Source: Serpentinicella alkaliphila (lineage in GTDB: Bacteria; Bacillota; Clostridia; Peptostreptococcales; Natronincolaceae). From it: a stretch of DNA of 64,000 nucleotides. Numbering within the stretch: the first letter of the stretch is position 1; each line of letters starts with the position of its first letter. Positions 4,903-54,152 of the stretch are shown in pieces. The DNA lies in the NCBI RefSeq assembly GCF_018141405.1, contig NZ_CP058648.1, positions 2,878,502 through 2,942,501 on the forward strand. Direction: 5' to 3'. The position numbers were made by a program, and so were the translations under genes. The notes beneath the pieces were generated by a model, which made no database searches, had not been told where the DNA came from, and saw only the letters and a list, made by a program, of their open reading frames with translations.

Positions 4903-4936
4903 AAAAAACGTCCTTTTGAAAAGCAAAAGAACGTTA
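4903..4936 (-). terminator. Intrinsic terminator, probable riboswitch expression platform
   Basis: On the minus strand a 12-base-pair stem (AACGTTCTTTTG with CAAAAGGACGTT, one G-T pair) around a 5-base loop is followed by a run of six T. It lies between the riboswitch-like element and the tupA ribosome site, which is where a transcription-attenuating platform would be. Confidence 0.85.
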
Positions 4937-4940
4937 GTAA

Positions 4941-5038
4941 AAAAATTCTTCCTTTCCAAACACGGGAGGCAATTAAATTTCTTTAATTACCCATAGGTCA
5001 TTCATTCATAGTTTCCCTTAGAATAGAATGACTCGGAA
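4941..5038 (-). promoter_or_regulatory. Probable Moco/Tuco (molybdenum/tungsten cofactor) riboswitch
   Basis: The intergenic RNA reads, on the minus strand, TCCGAGTCATTC, then GGGAAACTATGAATG, then AATGACCTATGGGT, an AT-rich paired arm, and GCCTCCCG followed by TTGGAAAGGA. These blocks resemble my memory of the Moco RNA motif; no covariance search was possible. It sits between the moeB-like gene and tupA and is followed at once by a strong terminator. Moco/Tuco riboswitches upstream of tungstate transporters are known in Clostridia. The aptamer begins about ten bases after the moeB-like stop, so it would act on read-through from the sigma-54 operon as well as on any local promoter. Confidence 0.65.
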
Positions 5039-5049
5039 TAATTATTTAA

Positions 5050-5730
5050 TTATTTATTAATATTTAATACAAATATCTCATTATCCAATAAGTCGATCAT
5101 CAATAGCTTTTTACTTAAGGTTTCTCCTAGTCCTAAAAGCACTTTAAGCACCTCAGAAACTTGGAAAGAAGCGATACAAGCCGGTGTAAAGGAAGGGTTT
5201 CCTATATTTTTTTCAACCCCTTTACTAACCCTAGTCTTATAAATAGCCGCTAATGTTCGATCCCCAGGCATTATGGTTGTAACCTGACCGTACCATCCCG
5301 CTATAGCTCCATGGACTAATGGTATTTTCATTGATTCACAAGCCTTTTCTAGAATAAATCTTGTATCAATAGAGTCTAGCCCATCAACAACAATGTCATG
5401 CCCCTCAATTAGACCATTTACATTCCCCTCATTCAGAAAAATTCGAATCCCATTGATCTGAACTTCAGGGTTAACCTGTTTCATACGCTCAATAGCTACT
5501 TCAACCTTTCCCCTGTTAATACTTTCGGAAGTTGCAAGGATTTGTCTATTCAGATTTGTCTCATCAAAGACATCTCCATCTATTATCGTTATACTTCCTA
5601 CTCCTACTCGCGTTAACATCTCAAGAATATAACCACCAAGACCTCCTGACCCAATGATACAAACCTTTTTTTTATCAAGTTTACTCATATCTTCGCTAGA
5701 AAATATACCATTTTTTGCATATCTCAGCAT
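5050..5730 (-). CDS. MoeB/ThiF-like adenylyltransferase activating the MoaD-like carrier
   Basis: This is an E1-like enzyme of 226 residues, at the short end for the MoeB/HesA/ThiF family. The ATP-binding GSGGLGGY is near residue 30, followed by IDGDVFDETNLNRQ (the conserved D and N-R of the adenylation site) and VDGLDSIDTR. The CxxC zinc pairs of full-length MoeB are absent. PACIASFQVSEVLKVLLG carries the conserved C-terminal-side segment. It starts one base after the stop of the moaD-like gene, so the pair is tightly coupled. It is expected to adenylate the C-terminal Gly-Gly of the MoaD-like protein for sulfur transfer to molybdopterin. Confidence 0.88.
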   Translation of the reverse strand: MLRYAKNGIFSSEDMSKLDKKKVCIIGSGGLGGYILEMLTRVGVGSITIIDGDVFDETNLNRQILATSESINRGKVEVAIERMKQVNPEVQINGIRIFLNEGNVNGLIEGHDIVVDGLDSIDTRFILEKACESMKIPLVHGAIAGWYGQVTTIMPGDRTLAAIYKTRVSKGVEKNIGNPSFTPACIASFQVSEVLKVLLGLGETLSKKLLMIDLLDNEIFVLNINK

Positions 5731-35887: not shown

Positions 35888-36206
35888 AAATTCATCATCT
35901 CCTTATTAAATGATTATAAGAATATTATGTTATTTTAACACAAAGTCTAAGTGGACTTAACCTTATTATATCATAAAATAAGGATTTTTTAGAAAAAACA
36001 TCCATTAAACAAATAAAAAGTTGTTGTTTCATGCTTAGAATATAGCTATAATTTTCATAAAACTCAACCCATCTCTCAACAGACTCTAGCCTTCTGCTCA
36101 ATATATTCATAAGTATGCTTCTACTACACGTTAGCACCTATTGACAATTCTATCTTCGGAATAGATTTTTAAATTATATATATCTAAATAACAACCTTAT
36201 CTCACA

Positions 36207-36237
36207 GAACCGGACTTACGTTTGCCGTATCCGGCTC
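36207..36237 (-). ncRNA. Group II intron domain V
   Basis: A 31-base hairpin has an outer 8-base-pair stem, a two-base AG bulge on the 3' side and an inner 4-base-pair stem capped by GCAAA. It lies 19 bases after the reverse transcriptase stop codon, the expected place. Confidence 0.8.
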
Positions 36238-36255
36238 CTGAAATTTCTCTCCGAA

Positions 36256-37517
36256 TTAATAATAATTCGACAACAACCCAACTTCATATGTTCCAATGTC
36301 TATGAGGCCTAGTTCTTCAAAGTATTTATTGGGCAATATCTGGTGTATAATATGAACGTTTGAGTTCTTCCACTTAGTTACAGCCATCTTAAGTCCATTT
36401 CCTTTGATTCCTAGTTTCCTCATTTCTTTATGCATCGCCTTATAGGTTTTCCATTGTTTCATCTTTATCATTCTTAATCTTCTGCGTAGCCAACCCATAA
36501 ATCCTACTATAAATCCTTTAATATTTGCTATTCGATAGTAATTTATCCATCCTCTTAGCTTAGGATTTAACTCTTTAATAATTTCTTCTAGTTTTCTCCC
36601 TGAGTTTCTTCTAGTAATTCGTCTTATATTTTCTTTAAAACGCTTTATCCTTTTAGAATTGACCGTAAGTATTCTTTTGTATATTACAAATCCTAGAAAG
36701 GCTACTCCTTCATTCACACTTGTTAGTTTAGTTTTCATATCATTAACTTTTAGCTTCAACTCTATCTCTAAGACTTTTGTAGCATAAGTTTTATAATCCC
36801 CTGCTGTTTTCTTATCTTTTGCAGAGATAAGAATATCATCAGCAAAACCCACTATTCTTATGCCATTATCCATCATCTTCTGGTCAAACTGATTAAGGTA
36901 TATGTTGCTAATCAATGGAGAGATTACTCCCCCTTGCGGAGAGCCGATTTCCGTTTCGCAAAAATTGTCTCTATGCATTACACCTGATTTTAGAAATTTC
37001 TTAATCAAGTCTAGCACTTTACTATCACTTATTCTCTCTGATATTGCTTCTATGATGATTTCATGGTCTAGAGTGTCAAAGCATTTGCTTAAGTCCATAT
37101 CTACTACATGTCCTAATCCATATTTATTCATAAATCGCTCTGCTTTTGCTACTGCCTGATGTTGTGAATTAGGCCTATATCCATAACTAGATGGATGAAA
37201 GGTAGGATCAAATATTGGTTCTATTATATTTACAATGACTTGTTGTACTACTCTATCTCTCACTGTTGGAATACTAATAATCTTATGCCTCCGTCCGGTT
37301 TTTCAATTTCTACTCTTCTTACTGGACTTGGTGCATACTCGTTGGTTTTCAGTCTTTCATGAAGAAACTCAATATTTAATTCAAGTCTTTCAGCAAAATC
37401 AGTAACAGTTTCCCCATCTATTCCTGGGGCTCCATTGTTCTTCTTTACACTTTTGAAAGCTAGTTTTAAATTTTCTTTTCGGTAAATTTTATCGATAAGG
37501 CTGTACCATTTCTTCAC
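36256..37517 (-). pseudogene. ltrA: Group II intron reverse transcriptase, frameshifted
   Basis: The N-terminal part (from GTG 37517 after AAGGAGG) reads KKWYSLIDKIYRKENLKLAF, NNGAPGIDGETV, and KPDGGIRLL, then leaves the frame near 37263. The rest continues in the next frame with RDRVVQQ, SSYGYRPNSQHQAV, DLSKCFDTLDHE, GSPQGGVISPLISNIYL, the catalytic FADDILIS, and the maturase region GWINYYR. A single G seems to be missing in LLGIPTVRDR. There is no endonuclease domain, as usual for class C. Restored, the protein would be about 420 residues. Confidence 0.9.
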
Positions 37518-38233
37518 GTTTTTCCTCCTTTGTTGCTGTATCTTTCAGTACCTCTTGCTTAAGCTATATGTTCTTTATTAGGCTCACTTGACGTCTCTAG
37601 CTCTATGGCTATCTTATCTTTACTTACCTGACTACTTCATATCTGTGTCATCGAGATAATTCGCAAGTTTCTTATGCCAATTATTCGTATCTTCCAGCAT
37701 TTCAGCTTTCTTTTAACACCTTCACTCTTACTTAAGGTACCTTCCAATACACTTTGAAATCTCTTCCACCCTTCGCATCTATCATAGATTTTTGACCTAT
37801 GATAGTCACATCAACTAGATGATATGTCACCTATATTTTCTCCTCCACACTATTACTAGCTTTCATTGGTATAGGTTTATTAACTACTACGGCTTCATCT
37901 GCATACTGCACCCTCATCTTACCTCTTGCTTTCGCTTGTAGGTAAAATTTACAGCTCAAGTACAGCACTTCCGAGGTTAATTTGCTCCACCTGTTACTAA
38001 AACGACCATCTTAACACATATGACTAAGCTAATTTTAGGACGTTCCCACTTTTAGGAGGGTTATCCACCATATGTGCCAACATTGGTTCACTTTCGTTCC
38101 GTTCCAGCAACCGCCATCAGCTTCCTTCAGACCCTTTTGTCACCAAAAGCGCCCTTGCCTACAGCTTGCCTTCACATTAGCAAGGTAGCAGGTTTTCTTT
38201 TAAACCATCGGCTCCGCAACATGCCTCGCAAAC

Positions 38234-38262
38234 TAAAAAATCCTCCCAGTCATCGGGAGGAT
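38234..38262 (-). terminator. Terminator that served as the intron target
   Basis: TCCTCCC and GGGAGGA form a 7-base-pair stem with a seven-base loop, followed by six T on the minus strand. The intron 5' end follows within two bases. It presumably ended the nrdDG transcript. Confidence 0.85.
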
Positions 38263-38512
38263 AGTATCTTAACAATATATAAACTTAATTCATCAGAAGT
38301 AAAATCAGACATAATTAAGTTAAATTATTCTTATAAGGTTAAAATATTAGAAATACTGTGTACAGAAATTCATTTGTACATTTTAAAATGTAAACCCTGG
38401 TATAAAATATATTCTCAACAAGCTATCTATCTAAAAAATATTATCCACTACAAATTTTTATAAAAACTCTCTTAAATATTAAATATGAGTAGTAGTTTTA
38501 ACATGTGATTTT

Positions 38513-41932: not shown

Positions 41933-43132
41933 TTAAATGTTTTTGAATATTTTATCCACCTTAAATCCTGGAAGTATTACCTTGAAAAGGTTTCGTCTTT
42001 CAATATTTAGTAATCTCAAGGTATTTTTTGGAAACATACCAATTAAATTTTGCAGGCTATAATTTGTCCCCAGAAATCTATTTTCCTTATCTAATGTCAT
42101 CAGCCTTTGATATAGCCAATTGTTCCTTTTGGCTGGATTCAGCTCTCTAATAATGGTCTGTGGATTAGTTCCCTTAGGTAGAGTGCCTGGATTACTAACT
42201 TCTATCTTTGTACTTCCAATAACCACCACTATCTCCTTGGTTAGATCAAAATAATCCCTATGAACAACTGCATTTACAATGCATTGAAATACAGGTTCTA
42301 TGGGATAATCATAGGGCTTAAAATATGTTTGCAAAAATTCTTGTGACCTATTAAGCATATCTATTATATTACCACCAATATTTGTTATCTTCTTCATTTT
42401 CTGATCATATGTAATTATTTTAATCCCAAAATAAGGCATATATATTTGAGGGTGCTCACAAAACAGCAGAAGTCCCCCTAGGGTTGGATAAAGTTTATTT
42501 GTATCATCATCATAATAAGTAATTCCAAGACTTAACCATATATCCTTTTCCACAGATTCATTTAATGATAACCCTAATTTTTTGATATATTCTTTTATTA
42601 ATTGTCTATTTAATACATCGATACCAAGATTATATAGAGGAATTAACTCATTGCTTATTAAACCAATCTCTTGAAACATGTTGGCAATTTCATATCTTCT
42701 GGCAAAGTCTGTAGTAGAACCTCTACGTATATAAAAGGCACCTGTTTGTCGCATCTGATGAGGTTTAAGTGGACTCTTAAAAATAGTGATTACTCCAACA
42801 TATTTGTCCTGATAATTCACCGTTTCTACCAGGAGGTTTACAGGTGGGTCACATCTATAGCTAATTATTTGTTGTATCCTCTCTTCGTTTAGATCCTCAG
42901 GATTAATCCCTTTTATTTCTTTTGTCGTATCTTTAATACCAATAATCAAATATCCTCTGCCACCTACAGAATTGGCTATTGCTATTACATCCTTAACAAA
43001 TTCTTTTTTATCTGACTCTGTTTTTAAATTCAATATTTCCTTAAAATCTAGTTTTACTCCTTCTTTATTCTTTATTAAAGCCTTTAGTCTTTGTATATCC
43101 AAAGATTGACTCACCCCTCTCTGATGAAACAC
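41933..43132 (-). CDS. AlbA_2/Schlafen-domain ATP-binding protein
   Basis: This 399-residue protein starts with an AlbA_2 (Schlafen-like) nucleic-acid binding module: EGVKLDFKEI, KEFVKDVIAIANSVGGRGYLIIGIKD and GAFYIRRGSTTDFARR. The C-terminal half has HRDYFDLTKEIVVVIGSTKIEVSNPGTLP, the HATPase-like segment of COG2865 (RecG-related) regulators. Such proteins are often linked to defence or mobile DNA, but no single role is established. Start is uncertain; GTG 43132 and internal GTG or TTG codons are alternatives. Confidence 0.8.
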   Translation of the reverse strand: MFHQRGVSQSLDIQRLKALIKNKEGVKLDFKEILNLKTESDKKEFVKDVIAIANSVGGRGYLIIGIKDTTKEIKGINPEDLNEERIQQIISYRCDPPVNLLVETVNYQDKYVGVITIFKSPLKPHQMRQTGAFYIRRGSTTDFARRYEIANMFQEIGLISNELIPLYNLGIDVLNRQLIKEYIKKLGLSLNESVEKDIWLSLGITYYDDDTNKLYPTLGGLLLFCEHPQIYMPYFGIKIITYDQKMKKITNIGGNIIDMLNRSQEFLQTYFKPYDYPIEPVFQCIVNAVVHRDYFDLTKEIVVVIGSTKIEVSNPGTLPKGTNPQTIIRELNPAKRNNWLYQRLMTLDKENRFLGTNYSLQNLIGMFPKNTLRLLNIERRNLFKVILPGFKVDKIFKNI

Positions 43133-44280
43133 TATTATTTCCTATTTTTAGCTTAACTTTCACTTCTATTTAACCTCTCTCTAAATTTTCTTTTTTCCTC
43201 CTAAATAAAAACTATATCCTTTCAGTATGATTCCAGTCTTGCTACCTTTCGCATTTTAAAGAGTTCTCTTAGCTTCATTACGTACTTCTCTGTATTTATT
43301 CATATATTCATTACTCCGATAGATTATGTTAGCAATGCTGATTATTTCGTAGAATACCCATGCTTTTTGGAATTATAGCATGTAAAGTTACTAGAGTCAA
43401 CGGAGTTGCAAAATAGAATGAGGATAACCCTCATATCTTTATTCAAAACATATTCTACACTATCCACTCACAAAAACTCTAAACTACGGTTGTTGATGCT
43501 TTGAAGACAAAATACCTACGTTTCAGCGTTGTTTATCCTAATCTAATAATAATTAACATTATTATTTAATGCATTGTAGCACTCCTATCCAAAATATTAA
43601 TTAAATAAAGTAGTATGTACTTAAACAATTCAAGATCTATTGAAGAACTTAGTAGCAGCACCTTAAGTTTTTGCTAGGAACACAGAACTGTTTATCTATC
43701 CCACTAATATATACATATAATTTTACTTAATTATTATATTATTTCCTTGCATAGTCACAAATTCCTTTAATTTTTTTCTACAATAGTATTGATAATAAGG
43801 CTTTGCCCTATATTAGTTACATTAGTCTTATTTTGATTGATCTTTGTTGATAATCGTGACTTGTGCTACAGCTAACAAAATAGACCAACCGACTTTTTTT
43901 ACTATTATGAGACACTATTTGTTATTAAATCAGAATTTTAATAATTGAAAACATTATTTTATTATTAGGTTTTGTAACGTTCTTTTCTATCATCAACAAT
44001 ATTTCCTTTTGGTTCTATTACCAATGAAAAAATCTTACATAATCAATATATGTCTAAGTCTAATTTAAATAAATTACAATAATTTTAGACTAAACCAGTG
44101 TCTCAAGAGCTCCCCTCGTAAGGTTGATAATTTTGCTCAGTTTCTTCATCATTACACTTATAAAATTCTTAACATATTTTTATAGACAAGCTAATATATA
44201 TTAATATTACAATTAATATGTTTATGGTTATGGATATACCATAAAATAGAATCTTATATTTATGTTAGGAGGAAATACAA
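43133..44280. other. Gene-free, probably decayed accessory DNA
   Basis: No reading frame with a ribosome site is supported across this 1.1 kb. It contains one copy of the dispersed repeat (43861-43916). Short coding-like scraps occur on the minus strand (for example a 20-codon frame at 44090-44152) but lack a start signal. Confidence 0.5.
43861..43916. repeat. Dispersed repeat R1, copy A
   Basis: This is the first of four copies sharing, on the plus strand, GCTACAGCTAACAAAATAG, then ACCAATCG, a T-rich spacer and TATTATGAGACACT. Similarity to copy B extends a further 20 bases to the left (TTGTTGATAATC). Confidence 0.8.
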
Positions 44281-44700
44281 ATGAGGAAATTTTTTCAATT
44301 AGATCCCAATACCTTTATCTTTATTAATTATATAAGCTTAGTGGGATTATTAGCTTTCTCTTTATTAAATCTGGCGGCACTGGTTACGTATATAAAATAC
44401 ACGTTAGGTGTATCTAACCAATTCATTGTTCTCTTACCTGCAATTAAGTTACTATTAAATATTGACTTTTTGTTTCTGGTGGCACTCATTTTAATGTACA
44501 ATGCAATTGAGAAATTTTTTGATTTTAAACTTGTCTTAATAGGAGCAATGATAGGTATTGTCAGTATCTTATACATTCTAGTTAATAACAAGCCTATAGT
44601 CATGATTGCAACTCTAGGTTTATACGGACTATCAATTCCTCTATATGCCATTATTGTTGGGCCTAATATACTCACTTCAAAACGATATCATCCGTACTAA
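44281..44700 (+). CDS. Four-helix membrane protein of unknown function
   Basis: This is a 139-residue protein with four hydrophobic segments (about residues 15-37, 48-68, 78-98 and 103-125) and a short polar C-terminus. AGGAGG lies eight bases before the ATG, so it is very probably translated. I do not recognise a family. It is on the plus strand, alone in a decayed region. The opposite strand also has an open frame here, which I regard as a shadow. Confidence 0.7.
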   Translation: MRKFFQLDPNTFIFINYISLVGLLAFSLLNLAALVTYIKYTLGVSNQFIVLLPAIKLLLNIDFLFLVALILMYNAIEKFFDFKLVLIGAMIGIVSILYILVNNKPIVMIATLGLYGLSIPLYAIIVGPNILTSKRYHPY

Positions 44701-44837
44701 AGCAAATACTAAAAATATTTATGAAGTGCAAGAAATAATAATAAAGTCTACCTTAGAGAAATGGCATTAAATTGTGTTAGTCACTTATATTTAAACATAT
44801 TAGCCATATATATACAGATATCCTATTTTAAAAAAAC

Positions 44838-44872
44838 ACTTTGATCTGAATTAATCAGCCAAAGTGTTTTAT
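44838..44872. terminator. Bidirectional terminator
   Basis: AAAACACTTTG pairs with CAAAGTGTTTT; T-rich flanks occur on both strands. It closes the minus-strand 58-residue gene and may also close the plus-strand membrane-protein gene. Confidence 0.75.
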
Positions 44873-44902
44873 TGGTTTTACATAATAATATTTTAATATT
44901 TA

Positions 44903-45079
44903 TTAATCTTGATATCCTGATAGTTGTTGCTGAGCACTATTAAGTGAATTTATTGCTTGTTGAATCTTATTTTTATTATCTGGTTTTTCTGCAGAATTAA
45001 GCGCTTGTTGTAATGTGTTAACAGTATTTTGTACTGATGACATACTTTGGTCAACGTACTGTTTAGCTTTTCCTGGCAT
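44903..45079 (-). CDS. 58-residue glutamine-rich small protein
   Basis: A strong AAAGGAGGTG site precedes the ATG at 45079. The protein starts MPGKAKQYVDQSMSSVQNTV, continues LQQALNSAEKPDNK and ends INSLNSAQQQLSGYQD. It is helical and coiled-coil-like, rich in Q, N and S, and has no cysteine. I do not recognise the family; a spore or coat-associated small protein is conceivable but unproven. It has its own terminator, so it is probably a genuine single-gene unit. Confidence 0.75.
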   Translation of the reverse strand: MPGKAKQYVDQSMSSVQNTVNTLQQALNSAEKPDNKNKIQQAINSLNSAQQQLSGYQD

Positions 45080-45440
45080 ATATTACACCTCCTTTAATAA
45101 TGTATTCAAAAATATTATCTACTGCAGATTTAAATAATATTCGTTATTATAAACAAAAAACACCATTATTTTTGAAACGGTACACCGTAGCGATGTGCAC
45201 CTGTGATTTTTATTTATTATTTATATAGTGTAAATATATGCCTTTGAAAACTTCGTAATAGCCAATCTATGACTCCTCTTATGATTTTTATTAATATTAT
45301 ACATATAAATGAAATTAAGTTTCAATACCTGTTCTTTATCTAAGCGTAGATTATCTCAAATATCCACTCTATAAAAATTATTAAGTTTACATGTACTACT
45401 TGCCCTATTATTTCTATTGGGCCTTGTTGATTATCTCCGC

Positions 45441-45495
45441 CTGTGCGGCAGCTATCAAAATAGATCAATCGACGTTTGTAGCGTTATGTAACACT
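45441..45495. repeat. Dispersed repeat R1, copy B
   Basis: Second copy of the R1 family (GCGGCAGCTATCAAAATAG, ATCAATCG, then GTTATGTAACACT). On the minus strand it begins directly after the stop codon of the gene relic at 45497. Confidence 0.8.
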
Positions 45496-45496
45496 T

Positions 45497-45740
45497 TTAA
45501 ATTTCATTCTTATGCTTTGAAAACCAGTCTTCCCAATCAAAGTCCTCTTGTTTTTGTAGTGCTTCTTGCATCCTTTCAAAGGATGCATTCTATATATAGG
45601 CACAAAAGTCTCTCCTGGTCTAGGACGAAACTTGGGAAGCCCCAATTCTCTTATTTCTTCTAGCCCTAACCCAAATTTATTAGATATTAGCAATTTGTGA
45701 GGTACAACATAGGGCTATCTGGCGCATTATCTTAAAAATA
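45497..45740 (-). pseudogene. C-terminal relic of an unidentified gene
   Basis: On the minus strand SPMLYLTN, then (after a stop) ISNKFGLGLEEIRELGLPKF and RPRPGETFVPIYRMHP read as protein; after a frame change ERMQEALQKQEDFDWEDWF and SKHKNEI end at a stop at 45497. This has the look of an intact protein tail. I cannot name the family. Repeat R1 copy B abuts the stop. Confidence 0.5.
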
Positions 45741-45761
45741 TTAGTAGTGTAATTTTTATTG

Positions 45762-46505
45762 TTATTGAATCCTTGGATTGATAGGGCGTGTTTTAGAGAT
45801 ATCATTATTCCCGTCAAAAAAATGTTTCATTCCTCTGACTAAAGAGTCATCTTCCAAAACACTCCATAGATGATACCCTAAATCTTCACGCTTAAGTAAA
45901 ACCTCTTCTAAAACCTGAACAGTACCAAAATCCTTAAGTTCATGTGCACGTGCAATTGTTTTTCTTAACATATGTTGAATTTTAATTTCATGCTCAAGGT
46001 CATTACGTAAAAAGTCGCGCATCGTATATCGACCTTCAACTTCATGTTTGATATAAGATAATTCATGTTGAGTCACAGGATGTGCCGTTGGAACGACCCC
46101 TAATCTTGCTACTCGCTCACCTACTCTATCGATATGATCCTGTGTAACATCAATATGTTCATCTAACAAATGATGTAAACTTAAGAAAGATTCTGCTCCC
46201 TCCGTTAACCAGTGATGCTTTGTGTATTGGTGTAATGCGACATTTAAAGCGCATAAGTGATCATCAAGCATTAGCCCCATTTCTAAACGAACATCAGCTG
46301 GAAGACTGATCCCAGACCCTTCAGATCTTACGGTTCTTGGCTGCTGACGTAAAACCATGTTTTGTGGATGGTTTGTTGTATGACCTGGCATAGTTGTGTC
46401 AAAACCAGATTTTGATAATTTGAAATCATCTTGAAACTCACTTACGTTTTGTTGAACTATTTTAAAGTCCTCGTTCAAAATCTCATTATGGTTTTCATTT
46501 TGCAT
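45762..46505 (-). CDS. dps: Dps-family ferritin-like protein
   Basis: This 247-residue protein is of the Dps (DNA protection during starvation) superfamily, with an unusually long N-terminal extension of about 75 residues. The ferroxidase region reads LCALNVALHQYTKHHWLTEG and SLHHLLDEHIDVTQDHIDRVGERVARLG, with the H-x12-D-x3-E-like ligands expected in Dps. ATG 46505 with AGAGGTGG is preferred over an upstream in-frame start. It would store iron and consume peroxide, useful for an anaerobe exposed to air. Confidence 0.88.
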   Translation of the reverse strand: MQNENHNEILNEDFKIVQQNVSEFQDDFKLSKSGFDTTMPGHTTNHPQNMVLRQQPRTVRSEGSGISLPADVRLEMGLMLDDHLCALNVALHQYTKHHWLTEGAESFLSLHHLLDEHIDVTQDHIDRVGERVARLGVVPTAHPVTQHELSYIKHEVEGRYTMRDFLRNDLEHEIKIQHMLRKTIARAHELKDFGTVQVLEEVLLKREDLGYHLWSVLEDDSLVRGMKHFFDGNNDISKTRPINPRIQ

Positions 46506-46568
46506 ATTTCCACCTCTTAATTTTTTTATCATTAATTTTACCCTGCTTAATTTTTCCCTGTTCAGCAT

Positions 46569-47217
46569 TAATTATGTATAGGAAAAAGGAAGAATTTTAT
46601 TTAAATATAAATTACATATGTAAGAATGATTAGAGTTTTTTCGAGTGTTAAGAACAAAAAATAAATCGAATTAGAAAAAAAGATTATGTATTTTTATTTT
46701 GTGAATGTAGAAAGCGAAGTGTCTCTTTTTTGTTGAAGTAAAGGGCAGGTTAGCTTAATAAGGGATAAACTAATACAGAGGGAGAAAATATAGAGTTTGA
46801 TATAGTGCTTGTGTGGCAGCTATCATAATACACCAATCGCCTTTTTTCAATTATGGAACACTTTTTGGCATTCAACACAACTTATAATTTTCCTCACATA
46901 ATATTTGTATTTTAGTTTTAATATCAAGTCTCCTTTCTCTAGGTTTCTATTTATAGATTCGATAGTTTTTCAAGCAGTCCAGTATTCTCGCTCTAGTGTC
47001 AGAGTCCTCAAATCCTTATACTATATGCCAGGGATTCATACTCTTGTTTCAACTTTTGATTTGCTTGGGTAAATATAATATAAATCTGCATACGCGTACG
47101 CGTATCTGTATTCGTAACAAATCAAGCTACGCAACTTGTACTGACCTTGTCTCGATAAAATTCTTATCATATCAAAAGAACAGTCCCTTTCACATGGACA
47201 TGATATATTCTAGGCAT
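46569..47217. other. Region without a supported gene
   Basis: It holds repeat R1 copy C (46809-46862), a CpG-rich 16-base palindrome at 47090-47105, and a minus-strand scrap (QANQKLKQEYESLAYSIRI near 47000-47060) that may be a leftover coding segment. No ribosome site or full frame is seen. Confidence 0.45.
46809..46862. repeat. Dispersed repeat R1, copy C
   Basis: Third and most diverged copy (GTGGCAGCTATCATAATAC, ACCAATCG, T run, ATTATGGAACACT). Confidence 0.7.
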
Positions 47218-47430
47218 CTATGATTTCCTCCAATAATAGATTGCCAATTGTGTTCGATCCCTTATTTGCAATTTTTCCAGGATAACTGACAGATTATTAC
47301 GTATCGTTCCTTCACTAATAAATAACTGCTCAGCGATCTCACGATTGGAAAGACCCTGTGCTATTAATTCTACAATATCCTTTTCTCTAAATGACAATTT
47401 TGTAAGTCCTTCTCTATCGGGAGATGCTTA
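47218..47430 (-). pseudogene. LuxR-type helix-turn-helix tail of a response regulator
   Basis: The frame reads LSFREKDIVELIAQGLSNRE, IAEQLFISEGTIRNNLSVIL and EKLQIRDRTQLAIYYWRKS, a complete GerE/LuxR DNA-binding domain with its natural stop at 47218. The receiver domain is missing; upstream sequence switches to an IS110 relic near 47440. It is a NarL-type regulator remnant. Confidence 0.85.
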
Positions 47431-47432
47431 CA

Positions 47433-47930
47433 TTATCCTGACTTTGCAAGAGTTGACAGAATTACTTGCCAGCCAAGGTCATAATATTCCCTTGAGAGAT
47501 TTCTTAAATTAAGGGCAAGCTGCGACGGCATAAGAGAAACCTTTAAATCAGGCTTTAAACCGATTAAAGCAGCTTTTTTTGAATCAAATCTGTCATTATG
47601 CACTTTTCTAATGTTAATGTTTGTGCTATTCTTAGTGATGATAGGATTAATCACGGAGACATGAAATCCTTTATCACGAAGATAGCAGAAGAGGGGGTAA
47701 TGATAAATTCCCGTGGATTCGATGAAAATACGACTTTCCAAAGAATACAACTCTTCTGCTTCTTTTATTTTTGAAACAGTCATAGCAAGGGAATTTAAAT
47801 CAGAGTGTAGGATTTTAAAAGGCTTACCCACAAAGGTTTGGTTAGGTAGTGCAATAGACATCTAACTGAAATCTGCACCTACATCAATACCAACTGAAAT
47901 AAATAAATCATATTTAGTAATGTTTGACAT
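47433..47930 (-). pseudogene. IS110-family transposase, truncated and with nonsense codon
   Basis: The frame opens at ATG 47930 after AAAGGAGC with MSNITKYDLFISVGIDVGADFS, hits TAG at 47862-47864, and continues SIALPNQTFVGKPFKILHSD, RIFIESTGIYHYPLFCYLR and HNDRFDSKKAALIGLKPDL. The DEDD residues of the RuvC-like domain are all present (GIDVG, IESTG, NDRFD). The C-terminal serine domain is lost; the frame ends at 47433 in foreign sequence next to the LuxR tail. Confidence 0.88.
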
Positions 47931-48240
47931 GAGCGTTAGCTCCTTTCTGATAGGAATCCATTTCCAAGCAATGAGTACACATCCTAGCATGTGATACGGG
48001 TATAGCCTGAGGCTCCCAACCAGCCTAAACATAAAGCCTCATTGAATGGACTAATTGACTTAATTGTAGGTATAGGTCAGTAAAAATTGACTTCCCAAGC
48101 AGGCTTACATTTTTTGTCCTATCCTTAAGGATTATACATTATGAATAGTCTGGAGTCTATCGGGAACCATCAGACATGTTAAATAGAAAAGCAACATCTG
48201 ACGAAGGAAGAACTCCTTCTTCTGTTACTAAATAATAGAA
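47931..48240 (-). ncRNA. Structured IS110 flank, candidate bridge RNA remnant
   Basis: About 300 non-coding bases precede the transposase start. They contain TGAGGCT...AGCCTCA (48008-48041) and a CAG-ATGTT/AACAT-CTG stem (48171-48200). IS110-type elements encode a bridge RNA in the non-coding end before the transposase gene, which is where this lies. The assignment is positional inference only. Confidence 0.4.
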
Positions 48241-48314
48241 ATGTTTTTTAAAGAAATTGTATTTACTGCATAGTCGTTAGTGACTATGACATTATTATAC
48301 TAGGAGGTTTTCGT

Positions 48315-48551
48315 ATGAATATATTAGAGGGTTTTACTAAAAACGATGATTTAATTGAATTTATTTGTAAAAAATGCAGCTATACTTTATGGGTACCACG
48401 TTTTATAGTTCAGCAACTTGAAGAAGATAACTTATTTAATGGGCTAGATAAATCTGTTCCACCGGAGCCATTCTGCCAAGTATGTGATGGTGTAATGACA
48501 CCCGTTTCATATACTGGTATACATGGTATTAAATATGAATACAAAAAGTAA
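48315..48551 (+). CDS. Small zinc-ribbon-like protein
   Basis: This is a 78-residue plus-strand protein with AGGAGG before the ATG. Two cysteine pairs, CKKC (about residue 18) and CQVC (about residue 54), 34 residues apart, suggest a four-cysteine zinc site. Between them lies a helix-like acidic segment. No family is recognised. A terminator follows the stop. Confidence 0.75.
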   Translation: MNILEGFTKNDDLIEFICKKCSYTLWVPRFIVQQLEEDNLFNGLDKSVPPEPFCQVCDGVMTPVSYTGIHGIKYEYKK

Positions 48552-48585
48552 TTAATATTAAGCTTAATATTATATTGGTAATATT

Positions 48586-48609
48586 AGTCATTGCACGATG
48601 GCTTTTTTG
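48586..48609 (+). terminator. Terminator of the zinc-ribbon gene
   Basis: AGTCAT pairs with ATGGCT (one G-T pair) over a six-base loop and is followed by TTTTTTG. Confidence 0.65.
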
Positions 48610-48691
48610 TTTTTCCTGAAATTTTTTTTACAATATATGGTTGTAGTTGCAACTACTTGCATAAAACTAGAACTTTCCTATTAAATTAAAT

Positions 48692-48726
48692 GAAAAAAAA
48701 AGACCTTCTCCTTTGAGAAAGTCTTA
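48692..48726 (-). terminator. Minus-strand terminator downstream of hepT
   Basis: AAGACTTTCTC pairs with GAGAAGGTCTT (one mismatch) over a short loop, followed by nine T on the minus strand. Confidence 0.75.
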
Positions 48727-48798
48727 GTAATTAGTAAAATACTCTTCATTACCTTATATATATATGCACATATTCTTTTTTAACCAACATTAGATTTA

Positions 48799-48870
48799 TA
48801 TAGAGAACTATAGTTTTTGGTTACACATCTAAGTTTACGTGTATACATCTCCAATTAAATAGGAGGGCGT
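48799..48870. repeat. Dispersed repeat R2, copy a
   Basis: A 72-base sequence is shared with 51442-51513 at 64 of 72 positions by my hand alignment. It contains TTTTTGGTTACACATCTAAG and CTCCAATTAAATAGGAG, the latter a small hairpin. Confidence 0.85.
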
Positions 48871-48900
48871 TGTTAATTAATTTGAAAGACGTATTGATGC

Positions 48901-48956
48901 TTGGGCTACAGCTAACAAAATAGACCAATCGCTGCTTTTTAGTATTATGAAACACT
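48901..48956. repeat. Dispersed repeat R1, copy D
   Basis: Fourth copy of R1, nearly identical to copy A over GCTACAGCTAACAAAATAG. It begins 20 bases downstream of the hepT stop codon on the minus strand, and R2 copy a is only 30 bases away. Confidence 0.85.
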
Positions 48957-48975
48957 GTTGATAGTGCAAATCAAT

Positions 48976-49374
48976 CTATCCATAAAAATACCTAACAATT
49001 TCCTTCATATATAACATTAGATCCTCAATGTCCTCAGTAATAATTTTATAAACCACTCCCCGATCTATCTTAACATAGTCATGAACAAGTATATTTCTAA
49101 AAGAAGCCATGTCACTAAGGTTTTCTTTTAGTTCTAAAGTTATAATTTCATTTTCATATAGTATTTCAAACACATCTCTATTAGTCTCTGGCTTTCTGTA
49201 TCTCATATCACATTCTATAGCTAAGTGGAAAAATCTCTCGCTAGATCCATATATAAAAGGATTTTTTACGTACTCAACTTCAGTATATTTTTTTATATTA
49301 TCTAAAAAAGCTATATTTTCCTTTAACTTGTTTAATCTAGTCATTAATGTATCTTCATTCACCACAAATAGCAC
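48976..49374 (-). CDS. hepT: HepT-type toxin (DUF86)
   Basis: This ~130-residue HEPN-domain protein has the RNase motif R-x4-H-x-Y in FRNILVHDYVKID, as in HepT toxins of HepT/MntA pairs. SERFFHLAIECDMRYRKPE matches the first helical half of DUF86. The start may be GTG 49374 or GTG 49362 (VNEDTLMTRLNKL). The partner antitoxin gene immediately upstream is frameshifted twice. HepT is normally silenced by MntA-mediated AMPylation of the motif tyrosine, which is retained here. Confidence 0.85.
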   Translation of the reverse strand: MLFVVNEDTLMTRLNKLKENIAFLDNIKKYTEVEYVKNPFIYGSSERFFHLAIECDMRYRKPETNRDVFEILYENEIITLELKENLSDMASFRNILVHDYVKIDRGVVYKIITEDIEDLMLYMKEIVRYFYG

Positions 49375-49386
49375 GCGCTTTCTGAG

Positions 49387-49804
49387 TTACATCTCTTTTT
49401 TTATTGCTTGTACCATAGCTTCATTATAAACTTCCGCATAATATTGGAAGTCAAAGTACTCTCGTAGGGCTAAAGATTCTAATTCTGCTCTTCTTTCACT
49501 TTCAATTAAATATTACCATTTTTTACTACTTCATACTTTAGCAGCGGTGTAGCACTGTTAAGAGTTATAACATCTAGTTTTCTCTGAAAATACTTTGTTC
49601 CCATATCAATTATATTTCCTTTAATTATAACTTCCTTCTTAGATTCATATTTTCTTGAAACATAATTGCAATATCAACATCACTTTCATTATTATTTTTT
49701 TCTATTGCAAAAGATCCAAATAGATAAGCAAACTCTATAGGATATTGCAAGTTAACTTGAACTAGAAATTCATCTAATTTTTGTAGCAGACTCTCCTTTT
49801 CCAT
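49387..49804 (-). pseudogene. mntA: MntA-type nucleotidyltransferase antitoxin, frameshifted
   Basis: The frame begins MEKESLLQKLDEFLVQVNLQ and includes FAYLFGSFAIEKNNNESDVDIAIMF, the G-S-x9-S-D-x-D active site. It is then broken near 49650. The next frame gives GNIIDMGTKYFQRKLDVITL and KYEVVKNGN, and a third frame ESERRAELESLALREYFDF to a stop at 49387. Two small deletions are enough to explain it. The catalytic part survives but the protein cannot be complete. Confidence 0.82.
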
Positions 49805-50009
49805 AGTGCCTCCTTCATATAACTGAATGATTTAAAAGCATTTTTGACTATTTTACTACCTATAGCTCTTGTTATAATTAAAATAATTGATCATTAGTGA
49901 TTCTACTTCCTTTATTTTGCTTAAATTTAACAGCTGCATAATAAATTCTAATCTACCGATTTCTTTTCTAAAGTTCTACTCAAATACAATTAGTTGCCCA
50001 TCCTCTTCC

Positions 50010-50228
50010 TTACTCTTCAAAATACTCTAACAAATCCCCTGGCTGACATTTTAGAAACCTACAAATGGCCTCTAGTGTAGAAAATCTTATAGCCTTTACT
50101 TTGCCCGTTTTTAAGTTAGATAAATTTACAATACTTATTCCTACTCCTTCAGAAAGCTCACTCAGTTGCATTTTCCTATCTGCTAGCACTCTATCTAGCC
50201 TTATAATAATTGCCATGTCCATCTCCAC
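50010..50228 (-). CDS. XRE/YozG-family helix-turn-helix regulator
   Basis: This is a 68-72 residue Cro/C1-type repressor: IIRLDRVLADRKMQLSELSEGVGISIVNLSNLKTGKVKAIRFSTLEAICRFLKCQPGDLLEY by segments, the standard YozG form. The start is one of three close ATG codons. It follows the DUF2975 gene by three bases; this pair is common in Firmicutes and the regulator probably controls it. Confidence 0.92.
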   Translation of the reverse strand: MEMDMAIIIRLDRVLADRKMQLSELSEGVGISIVNLSNLKTGKVKAIRFSTLEAICRFLKCQPGDLLEYFEE

Positions 50229-50231
50229 CCT

Positions 50232-50831
50232 TTACAATGTCGAATCGTATTCTTCTTGAAGATAATTTCCATATTTAAAAATACCTGCCAGAATCAGCAT
50301 CATAAAACCTGTAAAAGCCATAAAGAGGTCAATGTTTATATTTATATCTAAATTCGTTATATTTAAGGTAGTAATAATCGTTTTTGCTGCCATAGCACCA
50401 GTAATTCTTAAAATAATAGACCCCAGTATTAGTATTACCCCAATAATAGTTAGTCGCTTTTCATTTTCCTTAGCAAAAGGCTTATCAGTTTCAACAGTTT
50501 CCAGTAGTGATATCAACTGCTTGAGTATAATAATGAAGCCTCCTGACGTAAATGCAGCTATCCAAGCAATGGATCTATAAATTGATTTTACAGAAACTCC
50601 CACATGAGATGCATCCATTCTGTATCGAATTAAACTGTCCATAGATAAAGTAAATCCTTTGTTGTTAGCTTCTTTTACTATAAAAATATCATCAGATAAG
50701 AATGGAACAACGATCGCTGCCACTATTAGTAAACCCATTCCTAACAAAGTAATCCAAAAAAGCCCTCCCATCACAACTCTTAAATAACCAGCGATTTTTT
50801 TTACTTTTAAAGCATATGGACTATCTTTCAT
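50232..50831 (-). CDS. DUF2975 membrane protein
   Basis: This is a 199-residue protein with four hydrophobic helices (about residues 18-42, 88-110, 125-150 and 168-188). DUF2975 features are the second-helix region SIAWIAAFTSGGFIIILKQL and KPFAKENEKRLTIIGVILI. ATG 50831 with AGGAGG is chosen over an upstream frame extension. It is paired with a YozG-type regulator. Function unknown. Confidence 0.85.
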   Translation of the reverse strand: MKDSPYALKVKKIAGYLRVVMGGLFWITLLGMGLLIVAAIVVPFLSDDIFIVKEANNKGFTLSMDSLIRYRMDASHVGVSVKSIYRSIAWIAAFTSGGFIIILKQLISLLETVETDKPFAKENEKRLTIIGVILILGSIILRITGAMAAKTIITTLNITNLDININIDLFMAFTGFMMLILAGIFKYGNYLQEEYDSTL

Positions 50832-51288
50832 GAACTTTTTCCTCCTATTATCCTTATATAACTTGTATATAATCATTATATTCATTTATTATATGTTTGT
50901 AAATAATTTTTTAATGATAATCATTAAATATTTAATGCAATATAATTTTTAATTTAGGAATTTAGTTGGTTTTGAGTAATGAACTATATTAGCAAAGGTA
51001 CTGGCTATTTCTATGTCTAAATTTATAGTAGTATATGAACCTATTGGTATTTATAAATTGCAAATCGATATTATAGATTTATTGAACACTAGTGAGATGC
51101 TTTATAAAGTTGTCTTTGTATAATAAAATTCCTTTTATAAAAAACAGTTTAGGTGTTTTTAACTGTCTTCTTAAATGAATTTATCATTTATGGAACGATT
51201 CAGCATTATTAATCCTTAATGAATATAATGATACAATAATATAATTAATCTCAATCTGATTAGACTTCTTTGTAAAAAATTAATAAAA
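50832..51288. other. Intergenic region without a gene
   Basis: AT-rich DNA carrying the promoter of the DUF2975/YozG pair, not identified precisely. A 36-codon plus-strand frame near 51014 lacks a ribosome site and is not called. Confidence 0.4.
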
Positions 51289-51345
51289 TAGGGTATTAAA
51301 CTTAAAGTCATTAATGAAATCAAGCTCAATACCCTACACTTTTTA
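51285..51345 (-). terminator. Hairpin, probable terminator of the ppdK transcript
   Basis: Inverted repeat TAGGGTATT/AATACCCTA encloses a second pairing (AGCTTGATTTCATTA / TAATGACTTTAAGT) and is followed on the minus strand by a T-rich stretch. It belongs to the same hairpin type seen at 30248 and 41812. Confidence 0.6.
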
Positions 51346-51441
51346 TATTATAGTCCATTTTAGGCATTTAGACTATTTGTCTTATTGTTTTAATTAATAT
51401 TTGTTGTTTATCCCAACACTTTTGTAATCATATACCGCCGC

Positions 51442-51513
51442 TATAGAGAGCTATCGTTTTTGGTTACACATCTAAGTTCATGTTTATACGTCTCCAATTA
51501 AATAGGAGAACGT
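51442..51513. repeat. Dispersed repeat R2, copy b
   Basis: Second copy of the 72-base R2 sequence. It ends two bases before the stop codon of ppdK, so it lies directly behind the gene. Confidence 0.85.
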
Positions 51514-51515
51514 GT

Positions 51516-54152
51516 CTATTTTTGAGGTAGACGTAGCGCCGCCTGTGCAGCTGCAAGTCTTGCTATTGGCACTCTAAACGGTGAACATGACACATAGTCT
51601 AATCCTAATTGGTGACAGAACTCTATTGATGATGGGTCTCCGCCATGCTCTCCACATATACCTAGCTTAATATTGGGTCTAGTTTGCTTTCCTAAATCTG
51701 CAGCTATTTTTATTAACTTACCTACCCCAGCTCTATCTAATCTTTGGAATGGGTCTTTTTCTAATATATTCTTCTCAACATATTCTCCGATAAATCTACC
51801 AGCGTCATCTCTTGAAAATCCAAATGTCATTTGAGTAAGGTCATTTGTACCAAATGAGAAAAATTCCGCTTCTTCAGCAATTTCATCTGCAGTAATAGCT
51901 GCTCTAGGAACTTCAATCATTGTTCCAATTAAGTAGTCAATTTTTACACCCTTTTCTTGAATTACTTCATTTGCTGTTTTTATCATAAGGTTTTTAATAT
52001 ATTTTAACTCAGTTAACTGCCCAACTAAAGGTACCATTATTTCTGGTATTACAGTTAGATTTTCTTCTTCTTTAAGAATAATAGCAGCCTCTAATATTGC
52101 TCTCACTTGCATTTCATAAATTTCTGGATATGTTACTGCTAGTCTGCAACCTCTGTGACCAAGCATAGGGTTTACTTCTTTTAATTCTGCCACAACATTT
52201 TTTAGTTGACTAACTGAAATATTCATTTTTTTTGCAAGTTTTACAATATCCTCTTCCTCATGAGGTAGGAATTCATGTAAAGGCGGGTCTAGTAATCTAA
52301 CAGTTACTGGTCTACTTCCCATTTCTCTAAAGATTTCAATAAAGTCCTGTCTTTGCATCGGCAATAATTGTTCTAAAGCATCCTTTCTTTCTTCAACATT
52401 TCTTGAAAGAATCATTTGTCTAACTACTGCAATTCTTGACTCTTCAAAGAACATATGCTCTGTTCTACATAATCCAATTCCTTCAGCACCAAAAATAATT
52501 GCTTGTTTCGTATCCTTTGGTGTATCAGCATTAGTTCTTATTTTTAATTTTCTAATTTCATCCGCCCATGCCATTAAAACTTCGAAATTACCTATTAATT
52601 CAGGGCTTTTAGTAGGTATCTCCCCATCATAAACATCACCAGTATTACCATCTAATGAAATAGCATGACCTTCGTTGTAAACTCTACCATTTATAGTAAA
52701 TGTTTTGCTCTCTTCATCAATTCTAATTTCCCCAGCTCCAACAATACAACATTTACCCATACCACGGGCAACTACTGCCGCATGTGAAGTCATACCTCCT
52801 CTGGCTGTTAGTATACCTTGGCAGGCTACCATACCTTCTAAATCCTCAGGAGATGTATCTGTACGAAGTAGAATTGCTTTTTCACCTAAACTATTTGCAT
52901 GAACAACATCCTCAGGAGTAAAATATGCTTTTCCTGACGCTGCCCCTGAAGACGCTGGTAGACCTTTAGTTAATAATGTGGATTTTGCTAGTTGTTCACT
53001 ATCAAATGTAGGATGTAATAATTGATCCAATTGGTTTGGTTCAACTCTCATTATAGCCTCTTCTTTAGTTATTAACCCTTCTTCTACCATCTCCACTGCA
53101 ATATTAATTGCTGCAGCAGCAGTTCTTTTTCCATTTCTAGTTTGTAGCACATATAGATTTTTATTTTCAATTGTAAATTCAATATCCTGCATATCCCTGT
53201 AATGCTTTTCTAAAAGATTGCATACATCAACAAACTGTTGATATGCTTCAGGCATTAATCTATCAAGTTCAGCTATTGGTTTTGGCGTTCTTATTCCAGC
53301 AACAACATCTTCACCTTGTGCATTTAGTAAAAATTCTCCATATAATAGATTTTCTCCGGTTGATGGATTTCGAGTAAATGCAACTCCTGTTCCACATGTG
53401 TCTCCCATGTTACCAAATACCATTGATTGAATATTTACTGCTGTCCCTAGATGATTTGGAATATCATTTAATCTACGATATATTATTGCCCTAGGATTGT
53501 TCCATGATTTAAATACAGCTTCAGTAGCCATTAATAGCTGCTCTCTAGTATCTTGAGGAAACTCTATATTCTTTTCTTTTCTAACTACTTCTTTATATAA
53601 TTCAGAAATATCTCTTAAATCTTCCCATGTTAACTCGGTATCATGTTCAATTCCTTTATCATTTTTTCTTCTATGAAGTATAGTATCAAATTTATATTTA
53701 GGTATCTCCAAAACTACATCACCAAACATTTGAATAAATCGTCTATAGCTGTCATATGCAAATCTTTTGTTATCAGTTGCATTAGCCATTCCAACTACTG
53801 ATTTATCATTTAGACCTAAATTTAAAATTGTATCCATCATTCCAGGCATTGAAAATACACTACCTGATCTAACAGACACCAACAGTGGATTATCTAGATC
53901 CCCTAGCTTCTTACCAGTCTTCCCCTCTAATTCAGCAAGATGATTAAAAATTTCTTCTTTGAGCTCATCCCAAAGCTTTGCACCTCTAACATAATATTCG
54001 TTACAGGCCTCAGTTGTAACAGTAAAACCACCTGGTACAGGTAGTCCTATTTTAGTCATTTCTCCCAAGTTAGCACCTTTACCACCTAATAGGGATTTCA
54101 TCTCTGCAGTACCCTCATTAAAATCATATACAAATTTTTTCAATTGCTGCAC
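51516..54152 (-). CDS. ppdK: Pyruvate, phosphate dikinase
   Basis: This is an 878-residue enzyme interconverting pyruvate, ATP and phosphate with PEP, AMP and pyrophosphate. The N-terminal ATP-grasp domain begins FVYDFNEGTAEMKSLLGGKGANLGEM. The phosphohistidine swivel domain has GGMTSHAAVVARGMGKCC. The C-terminal PEP barrel has GLCRTEHMFFEE, GTNDLTQMTFGFSRDD and the catalytic cysteine in LGICGEHGGDP. Full length. Its regulator gene is next upstream, so activity is likely controlled by phosphorylation of the swivel-domain threonine. Confidence 0.97.
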   Translation of the reverse strand: MQQLKKFVYDFNEGTAEMKSLLGGKGANLGEMTKIGLPVPGGFTVTTEACNEYYVRGAKLWDELKEEIFNHLAELEGKTGKKLGDLDNPLLVSVRSGSVFSMPGMMDTILNLGLNDKSVVGMANATDNKRFAYDSYRRFIQMFGDVVLEIPKYKFDTILHRRKNDKGIEHDTELTWEDLRDISELYKEVVRKEKNIEFPQDTREQLLMATEAVFKSWNNPRAIIYRRLNDIPNHLGTAVNIQSMVFGNMGDTCGTGVAFTRNPSTGENLLYGEFLLNAQGEDVVAGIRTPKPIAELDRLMPEAYQQFVDVCNLLEKHYRDMQDIEFTIENKNLYVLQTRNGKRTAAAAINIAVEMVEEGLITKEEAIMRVEPNQLDQLLHPTFDSEQLAKSTLLTKGLPASSGAASGKAYFTPEDVVHANSLGEKAILLRTDTSPEDLEGMVACQGILTARGGMTSHAAVVARGMGKCCIVGAGEIRIDEESKTFTINGRVYNEGHAISLDGNTGDVYDGEIPTKSPELIGNFEVLMAWADEIRKLKIRTNADTPKDTKQAIIFGAEGIGLCRTEHMFFEESRIAVVRQMILSRNVEERKDALEQLLPMQRQDFIEIFREMGSRPVTVRLLDPPLHEFLPHEEEDIVKLAKKMNISVSQLKNVVAELKEVNPMLGHRGCRLAVTYPEIYEMQVRAILEAAIILKEEENLTVIPEIMVPLVGQLTELKYIKNLMIKTANEVIQEKGVKIDYLIGTMIEVPRAAITADEIAEEAEFFSFGTNDLTQMTFGFSRDDAGRFIGEYVEKNILEKDPFQRLDRAGVGKLIKIAADLGKQTRPNIKLGICGEHGGDPSSIEFCHQLGLDYVSCSPFRVPIARLAAAQAALRLPQK

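Follow-up and report, generated by a model that had tools for sequence, protein, structure and literature searches.

Repeats behind ppdK in Serpentinicella alkaliphila probably mark the junctions of small gene cassettes integrated at the ppdK 3' end

Attachment at the 3' end of ppdK, the gene for pyruvate phosphate dikinase, has already been published for Bacteroidota, and arrays built by accretion have been described elsewhere. In the Bacteroidota, PvCTn-like conjugative transposons integrate at the ppdK 3' end, where their attB site (GYSGCNCARGCKGCHRTHGA) has been experimentally characterised (PMC11005914). In Dehalococcoides, islands stand in tandem behind the tmRNA gene ssrA, with displaced 3' ends that are preceded by a conserved motif; many of these islands have no integration module, and many carry a CcrB-like serine integrase (DsiB) together with DsiA (PMC3146451). 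cis-Mobilizable elements (CIMEs) retain attL and attR without integration or transfer genes and stack at one target gene, usually as decayed integrative and conjugative or integrative and mobilizable elements beside an intact one (PMC5704250). Integrons and clusters of attC sites lacking integron integrases (CALINs) have a fixed entry point and small, mostly co-oriented cassettes of very diverse cargo, with a recombination site at the end of each, and Firmicutes very rarely contain integrons (PMC9024848). Here we analyse a stretch of 64,000 nucleotides (hereafter, the window) from the closed 3.26-Mb genome of Serpentinicella alkaliphila (contig NZ_CP058648.1, positions 2878502-2942501), in which a repeat termed R1 occurs in four copies behind ppdK. 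Comparison with related genomes shows that the core and tail of R1 are identical in origin to the end of ppdK, that target and orientation are fixed, that homology breaks at the core, and that the cassettes between the copies have been exchanged between genera. We conclude that R1 is very probably an attachment-site junction (attL-type) of small gene cassettes that were site-specifically integrated at the ppdK 3' end.

The arrays share with the PvCTn-like elements the ppdK 3' end as target, the regeneration of the ppdK stop, and the site itself, since the R1 core (GCNGCNCAGGCGGC) lies at the ppdK AAQAA codons, the same codons as the published attB motif. However, the PvCTn-like elements belong to another phylum, are large and conjugative, and encode an integrase of their own, and their description includes no arrays of small units that lack an integrase (PMC11005914). 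Among the matches listed, no tyrosine integrase was found in the ppdK arrays, nor was any conjugation family among the scanned cargo, in a scan that was not exhaustive. The resemblance to the Dehalococcoides islands extends to the tandem arrangement, the displaced 3' ends behind a conserved motif, and the many islands without an integration module, whereas the target differs and no integrase is present in the ppdK arrays examined. Like CIMEs, the ppdK units are stacked at one gene, but they carry mostly one to few cargo genes, their ends are conserved among many genera, and they have no known intact parent. The arrays resemble integrons in their mode of working, with a fixed entry point and small, mostly co-oriented cassettes of diverse cargo that each end in a recombination site. 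In contrast to integrons, the arrays have no IntI and no attC structure, and the entry point is a housekeeping gene that would be rebuilt at each insertion.

All four copies of R1 have the same orientation, with the minus strand as their functional strand, and lie at 43853-43924 (copy 1), 45434-45503 (copy 2), 46806-46870 (copy 3), and 48893-48959 (copy 4). Delimited more narrowly, copies 1 to 3 span 43853-43918, 45434-45498, and 46806-46865. A 23-base core pattern allowing up to three mismatches matches exactly these four copies in the 64 kb and has no match in 100 dinucleotide shuffles, in agreement with the initial annotation of the window, which had described four co-oriented copies and none elsewhere. 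Its observation that two copies lie directly behind gene stops, those of hepT (stop at 48976) and of a relic at 45497, also holds. It had missed that the minus strand is the functional one, and that R1 contains a copy of the ppdK 3' end. No further full copy is present in the closed genome, as judged by blastn and by a profile of 35 copies and 88 positions.

Read on the minus strand, R1 consists of a ~45-bp non-coding arm (AAGTGTTCCATAATA...GATTGGTCTATTTTG), and a short core (TTAGCNGCNGCNCAGGC), to which three of the four window copies add the displaced 3' end of ppdK. In the aligned copies the arm reads AAGTGTTCCATAATAGTAAAAAATGGTGATTGGTCTATTTTG, the core TTAGCAGCAGCCCAGGCGGC, and the tail GATTAACAACAAAGACCAATCGAAATAA, followed by a terminator-like stem. 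The frame over core and tail reads LLAAAQAAINNKDQSK and a stop, which is the PpdK C-terminus; PpdK of the window ends in ...ARLAAAQAALRLPQK, and several relatives' PpdK end in ...ARLAAAQAAINNKDQSK or similar. The original ppdK 3' end is at 51516-51557, where the R1 profile matches weakly (51537-51556). Variation in the core and tail falls mainly on third codon positions (entropy 1.42 versus 0.57 and 0.41; permutation p = 0.0003), and the same test on the alignment finds no three-base period in the arm, on which basis we regard the core and tail as derived from ppdK and the arm as non-coding. The initial annotation had counted membership in a conserved coding sequence against its own proposals; core and tail do descend from the coding sequence of ppdK, although solely as displaced fragments. 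A coding repeat on the plus strand is ruled out by stops in frame (TGG/TGA/TGT variation at one codon). The positions behind gene stops and the terminator-like stems after displaced tails might also be expected of a terminator, a small RNA, or another regulatory or RNA element retained downstream of genes, but no Rfam family matches at R1, there is no fold signal, and the conserved half is ppdK coding sequence, which makes this explanation extremely unlikely.

A blastn search of R1 against 60 relatives (E <= 0.01) matched 19 genomes, including the window's own, usually as clusters, and profile iteration over stretches of at most 20 kb yielded about 53 copies. Strong matches were present in 18 genomes (own included) of an order sample of 297, mostly from the window's own family, and R1 was found in nine other genomes of a class sample of 391. 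Carriers named by a pattern scan include Natronincola, Anaerovirgula, Alkaliphilus, Geosporobacter, Anaerosolibacter, Proteocatella, Sinanaerobacter, Desulfosporosinus, and Syntrophomonas metagenome-assembled genomes (MAGs). R1 is absent from the viral contigs, plasmids, and phages that were scanned. On every family or order contig where both were found (genomes G001, G003, G004, G005, G006, G008, G009, G012, G015, G017, G019, G026, G038, G115, and G123), R1 lies downstream of ppdK, and all 41 of the 41 copies counted have the ppdK orientation. That R1 is restricted to one zone follows from its having only one target site, the ppdK 3' end. The cargo of homologous arrays differs between relatives, and in some of them the array stands between ppdK and a dgt-dnaG-rpoD cluster (several gene names inferred from size and order). 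Genomes without R1 have a compact order, ppdK-dgt-dnaG-rpoD in G030 and ppdK-dnaG-rpoD in G016 (names by size and order), which is how empty sites would look. The island of G003 also holds fragments of the ppdK 3' region (G003:C1:3038520-3038675 and 3044547-3044894) that exceed the usual displaced tail in length.

Successive junctions are spaced at a median of 2.0 kb (range 0.7-9.8 kb, 32 units), and in G123 the distance from the ppdK end to R1 is only about 290 bp. Most island open reading frames (ORFs) of at least 100 aa (115/144) run in the ppdK direction. The cargo includes HepT/MntA, Gabija GajA/GajB (G014), a SIR2-STAND protein, M28 peptidases, AzlCD, DUF2935, and GGDEF, among others. 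A module of three genes (FAD/FMN flavoprotein, response regulator, and histidine kinase) is present in the ppdK islands of five genomes, at loci L030:4645-9939, L036:8650-14498, L038, L042, and L051. Some units open, past the tail and terminator, with TATTATGGAACACTT repeats, an inverted form of the AAGTGTTCCATAATA in the arm; such inverted copies of an arm motif, and an IS110 relic in unit 2, would suit R1 as the end of an insertion sequence or a miniature inverted-repeat transposable element. However, R1 is confined to a single locus in every genome, without dispersed copies, it has a host gene tail on one side, and the cargo is entirely different from unit to unit, and we regard such an origin as highly improbable. 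The small non-autonomous element considered in the initial annotation was misconceived, as the units lie between the R1 copies and R1 itself is not the unit. Its proposal of ends of a lost mobile element was right in that each R1 is one end of one unit, but that end is joined to a displaced host gene tail.

Cargo blocks common to different genera have 80-94% DNA identity, compared with 74-77% for ppdK there. Unit 3 of the window (45426-46806) matches G005 at 92.4% identity (1387 bp), G006 at 91.9% (1012 bp), and G011 at 93.7% (447 bp), against 75-77% for the ppdK bodies. The hepT/mntA unit has counterparts of 81-83% identity in G012, G001, and G017, at other array positions, and pieces of unit 4 match G001 (80.5% over 745 bp) and G009 (90% over 328 bp). 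Between units, homology stops at the R1 core. In G000, G005, and G006, unit 3 has matching right ends over the arm and as far as GCTGCCGC[A/C]C, beyond which each of the three has a different ppdK tail. Further, the 333 bases after the window ppdK stop match DNA located behind internal R1 copies in G006 and G012 at 86-88% identity, in alignments that begin at the core, as is expected if the resident tail arrived with a cassette. Displaced ppdK 3' ends mark the unit boundaries in target orientation, and units have been exchanged between lineages with breakpoints at the att core, as looked for in an accretion array. That blocks common to other genera start or stop at R1 cores supports a third suggestion of the initial annotation, that the repeats are recombination sites that collected modules.

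Homologous recombination or natural transformation could also shuffle the cassettes, using ppdK and the R1 copies already in place as anchors, with no site-specific recombinase active now or for most copies. The lack of a linked recombinase in the arrays, the repeats of 60-300 bp that could be anchors, and the position of the arrays as vertical neighbours of a conserved gene are all consistent with such shuffling. However, it leaves the first joining of the arm to ppdK tails unexplained, the breakpoints lie at the core and are not scattered across arm or tail, and the units of one genus occupy different array positions elsewhere, so that we consider it improbable.

In the attachment-site reading that we prefer, cassettes of ~2 kb would be added in succession to the ppdK 3' end through conservative site-specific recombination. 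The attachment site of a circular cassette would have three parts, namely an outer arm (AAGTGTTCCATAATA...ATTGGTCTATTTTG), a core with the same sequence as the ppdK codons LAAAQAA, and a spare copy of the ppdK C-terminus together with a terminator of its own. A crossover in the middle of the core would provide ppdK with a new tail and push the old one outward, behind the arm of the cassette, and the composite of arm, core, and displaced old tail would be R1. Repeated integration would generate an array ordered from newest, beside ppdK, to oldest, with the outermost R1 copy 1 as the oldest. Several points weigh against this scheme. R1 copy 3 (46806) has arm and core without a ppdK tail and is joined straight to unit 3, its core being fused to the unit 3 interior at a point matching position 5102 of locus L037 in G005; a later deletion is perhaps responsible. 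Excision and the circular form of the cassette are presumptions of the model, as is the ancestral status of the outermost tail. Finally, no tyrosine recombinase (PF00589; 17 and 16 genomes scanned) lies inside any array, among the matches listed, and no intact serine recombinase (PF00239; 17 and 22 genomes scanned) does so either. The integrase would thus have to act in trans or have since been lost.

Many type-A copies contain, in the same place, an imperfect 54-bp dyad (ATTGGTCT...GCCC|AGGC...AGACCAAT), the centre of which coincides with the switch point of homology among the unit 3 right ends. Up to 21 of its 27 pairs are formed, versus a shuffle mean of ~13; in the best dozen copies the pairing equals or surpasses that of almost all of their own shuffles, which is not so for the other copies. 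A palindromic site after each of a series of small, tandem, mostly co-oriented cassettes of varied function would be in keeping with a chromosomal integron or CALIN, in which R1 would be attC and the units integron cassettes. We give this almost no weight, since the RYYYAAC...GTTRRRY boxes are not in place (judged by eye), single-strand folding is unremarkable (z -1.44 to +0.79), the conserved half of R1 is ppdK coding sequence, and, among the matches listed, the PF00589 scan found no integrase in the arrays (no search was made with TIGR02249 itself).

Candidate recombinases in trans exist, and none co-varies with R1. A 377-aa tyrosine recombinase beside lexA is present in 59 of 60 genomes with or without R1, so that it has no co-occurrence signal. 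A serine recombinase as universal partner is disfavoured by five R1 genomes without a PF00239 match (G298, G300, G301, G308, and G310), although these are mostly MAGs and the argument is therefore weak. In G014 and G038, a TATTATGGAACACTT-repeat start is followed, directly or one gene later, by a resolvase-fold protein (L054 6072-6644 and L057 9746-10228) with close homologues only at ppdK islands. This protein family is found only beside ppdK, in two bacterial families, with remnants in the G009 and G019 islands. Since its catalytic serine and both arginines of the DRLGR motif are replaced in an alignment to the Gin invertase, we rejected it as the recombinase; it probably does not cleave DNA and might bind it as an accessory protein. 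Tyrosine recombinases are present in every R1 genome scanned for PF00589, and several R1 genomes have no PF00239 match at all. Together with the use of the same codons as attB by the Bacteroidota elements, this suggests a tyrosine integrase in trans as the most likely enzyme and our first choice. A large serine integrase is possibly an alternative, as the geometry of the 54-bp dyad would suit the attP sites of these enzymes too, and assignment to any particular enzyme is tentative. It is conceivable, if rather unlikely, that the arrays represent a clostridial analogue of integrons, in which a trans-acting chromosomal recombinase would use the 54-bp dyad site to load integrase-less cassettes of a single or a few genes into ppdK as a fixed entry, the tail being rebuilt each time and the resolvase-like protein, free of catalytic residues, serving as accessory factor.

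In the window, ppdK is located at 51516-54152 on the minus strand (TIGR01828 match there in its own genome), with its 3' end as the target site. The junction at 51182-51557 (minus strand) is attR-like, comprising the ppdK core (centre between 51545 and 51544), a type-B tail, the stop, and a terminator region, and is interpreted here as the left end of the most recent unit. The units and R1 copies that follow are likewise on the minus strand, with two of the ORFs on the plus strand. Unit 1 (48903-51544) encodes a DUF-like membrane protein (50232-50885), a helix-turn-helix (HTH) protein (50010-50228), a broken MntA (49625-49804), and HepT (48976-49374), and borders on R1 copy 4, in which arm and core are followed by a displaced type-B ppdK tail. 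HepT looks intact, and its MntA-like antitoxin partner is broken by a frameshift or stop (49517-49804). Unit 2 (46811-48902) contains a 78-aa ORF (48315-48551, plus strand), the IS110 transposase relic (47433-48032), and a GerE HTH fragment (47218-47397), and it is followed by the tail-less R1 copy 3. A Dps/ferritin-like protein (45762-46568; Pfam Ferritin) and the small relic ending at 45497 make up unit 3 (45443-46810), which leads to R1 copy 2 with its displaced ppdK tail. Unit 4 (43863-45442) has a 58-aa ORF (44903-45079) and a 139-aa membrane ORF (44281-44700, plus strand) and is bounded by R1 copy 1, which carries a displaced type-A tail.

Just past this outermost copy lies a gene for a 399-aa AlbA_2 (Schlafen-type) domain protein (41933-43132), which may belong to an older, now unmarked unit. 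Farther along, a group II intron (36040-38465; RF02001 match at 37984-38149 and reverse-transcriptase ORF at 36256-37263) is located within an apparent ABC-F gene relic, and both of its flanks match the ABC-F gene region of other ppdK islands (69-81%). A molybdenum-cofactor riboswitch is present at 4933-5050 on the minus strand (RF01055, 78 bits).

The R1 repeat is thereby explained almost completely, and the Clostridia would be added to the bacteria that use the ppdK 3' end as an entry point for foreign DNA. The arm and core provide a sequence handle for what is probably a family of small mobile cassettes that integrase- and integron-based island finders would miss. These cassettes carry defence genes (HepT/MntA, Gabija, and a SIR2-STAND protein) as well as metabolic genes, and with no linked integrase in >30 genomes, the question of which enzyme moves them becomes directly testable.

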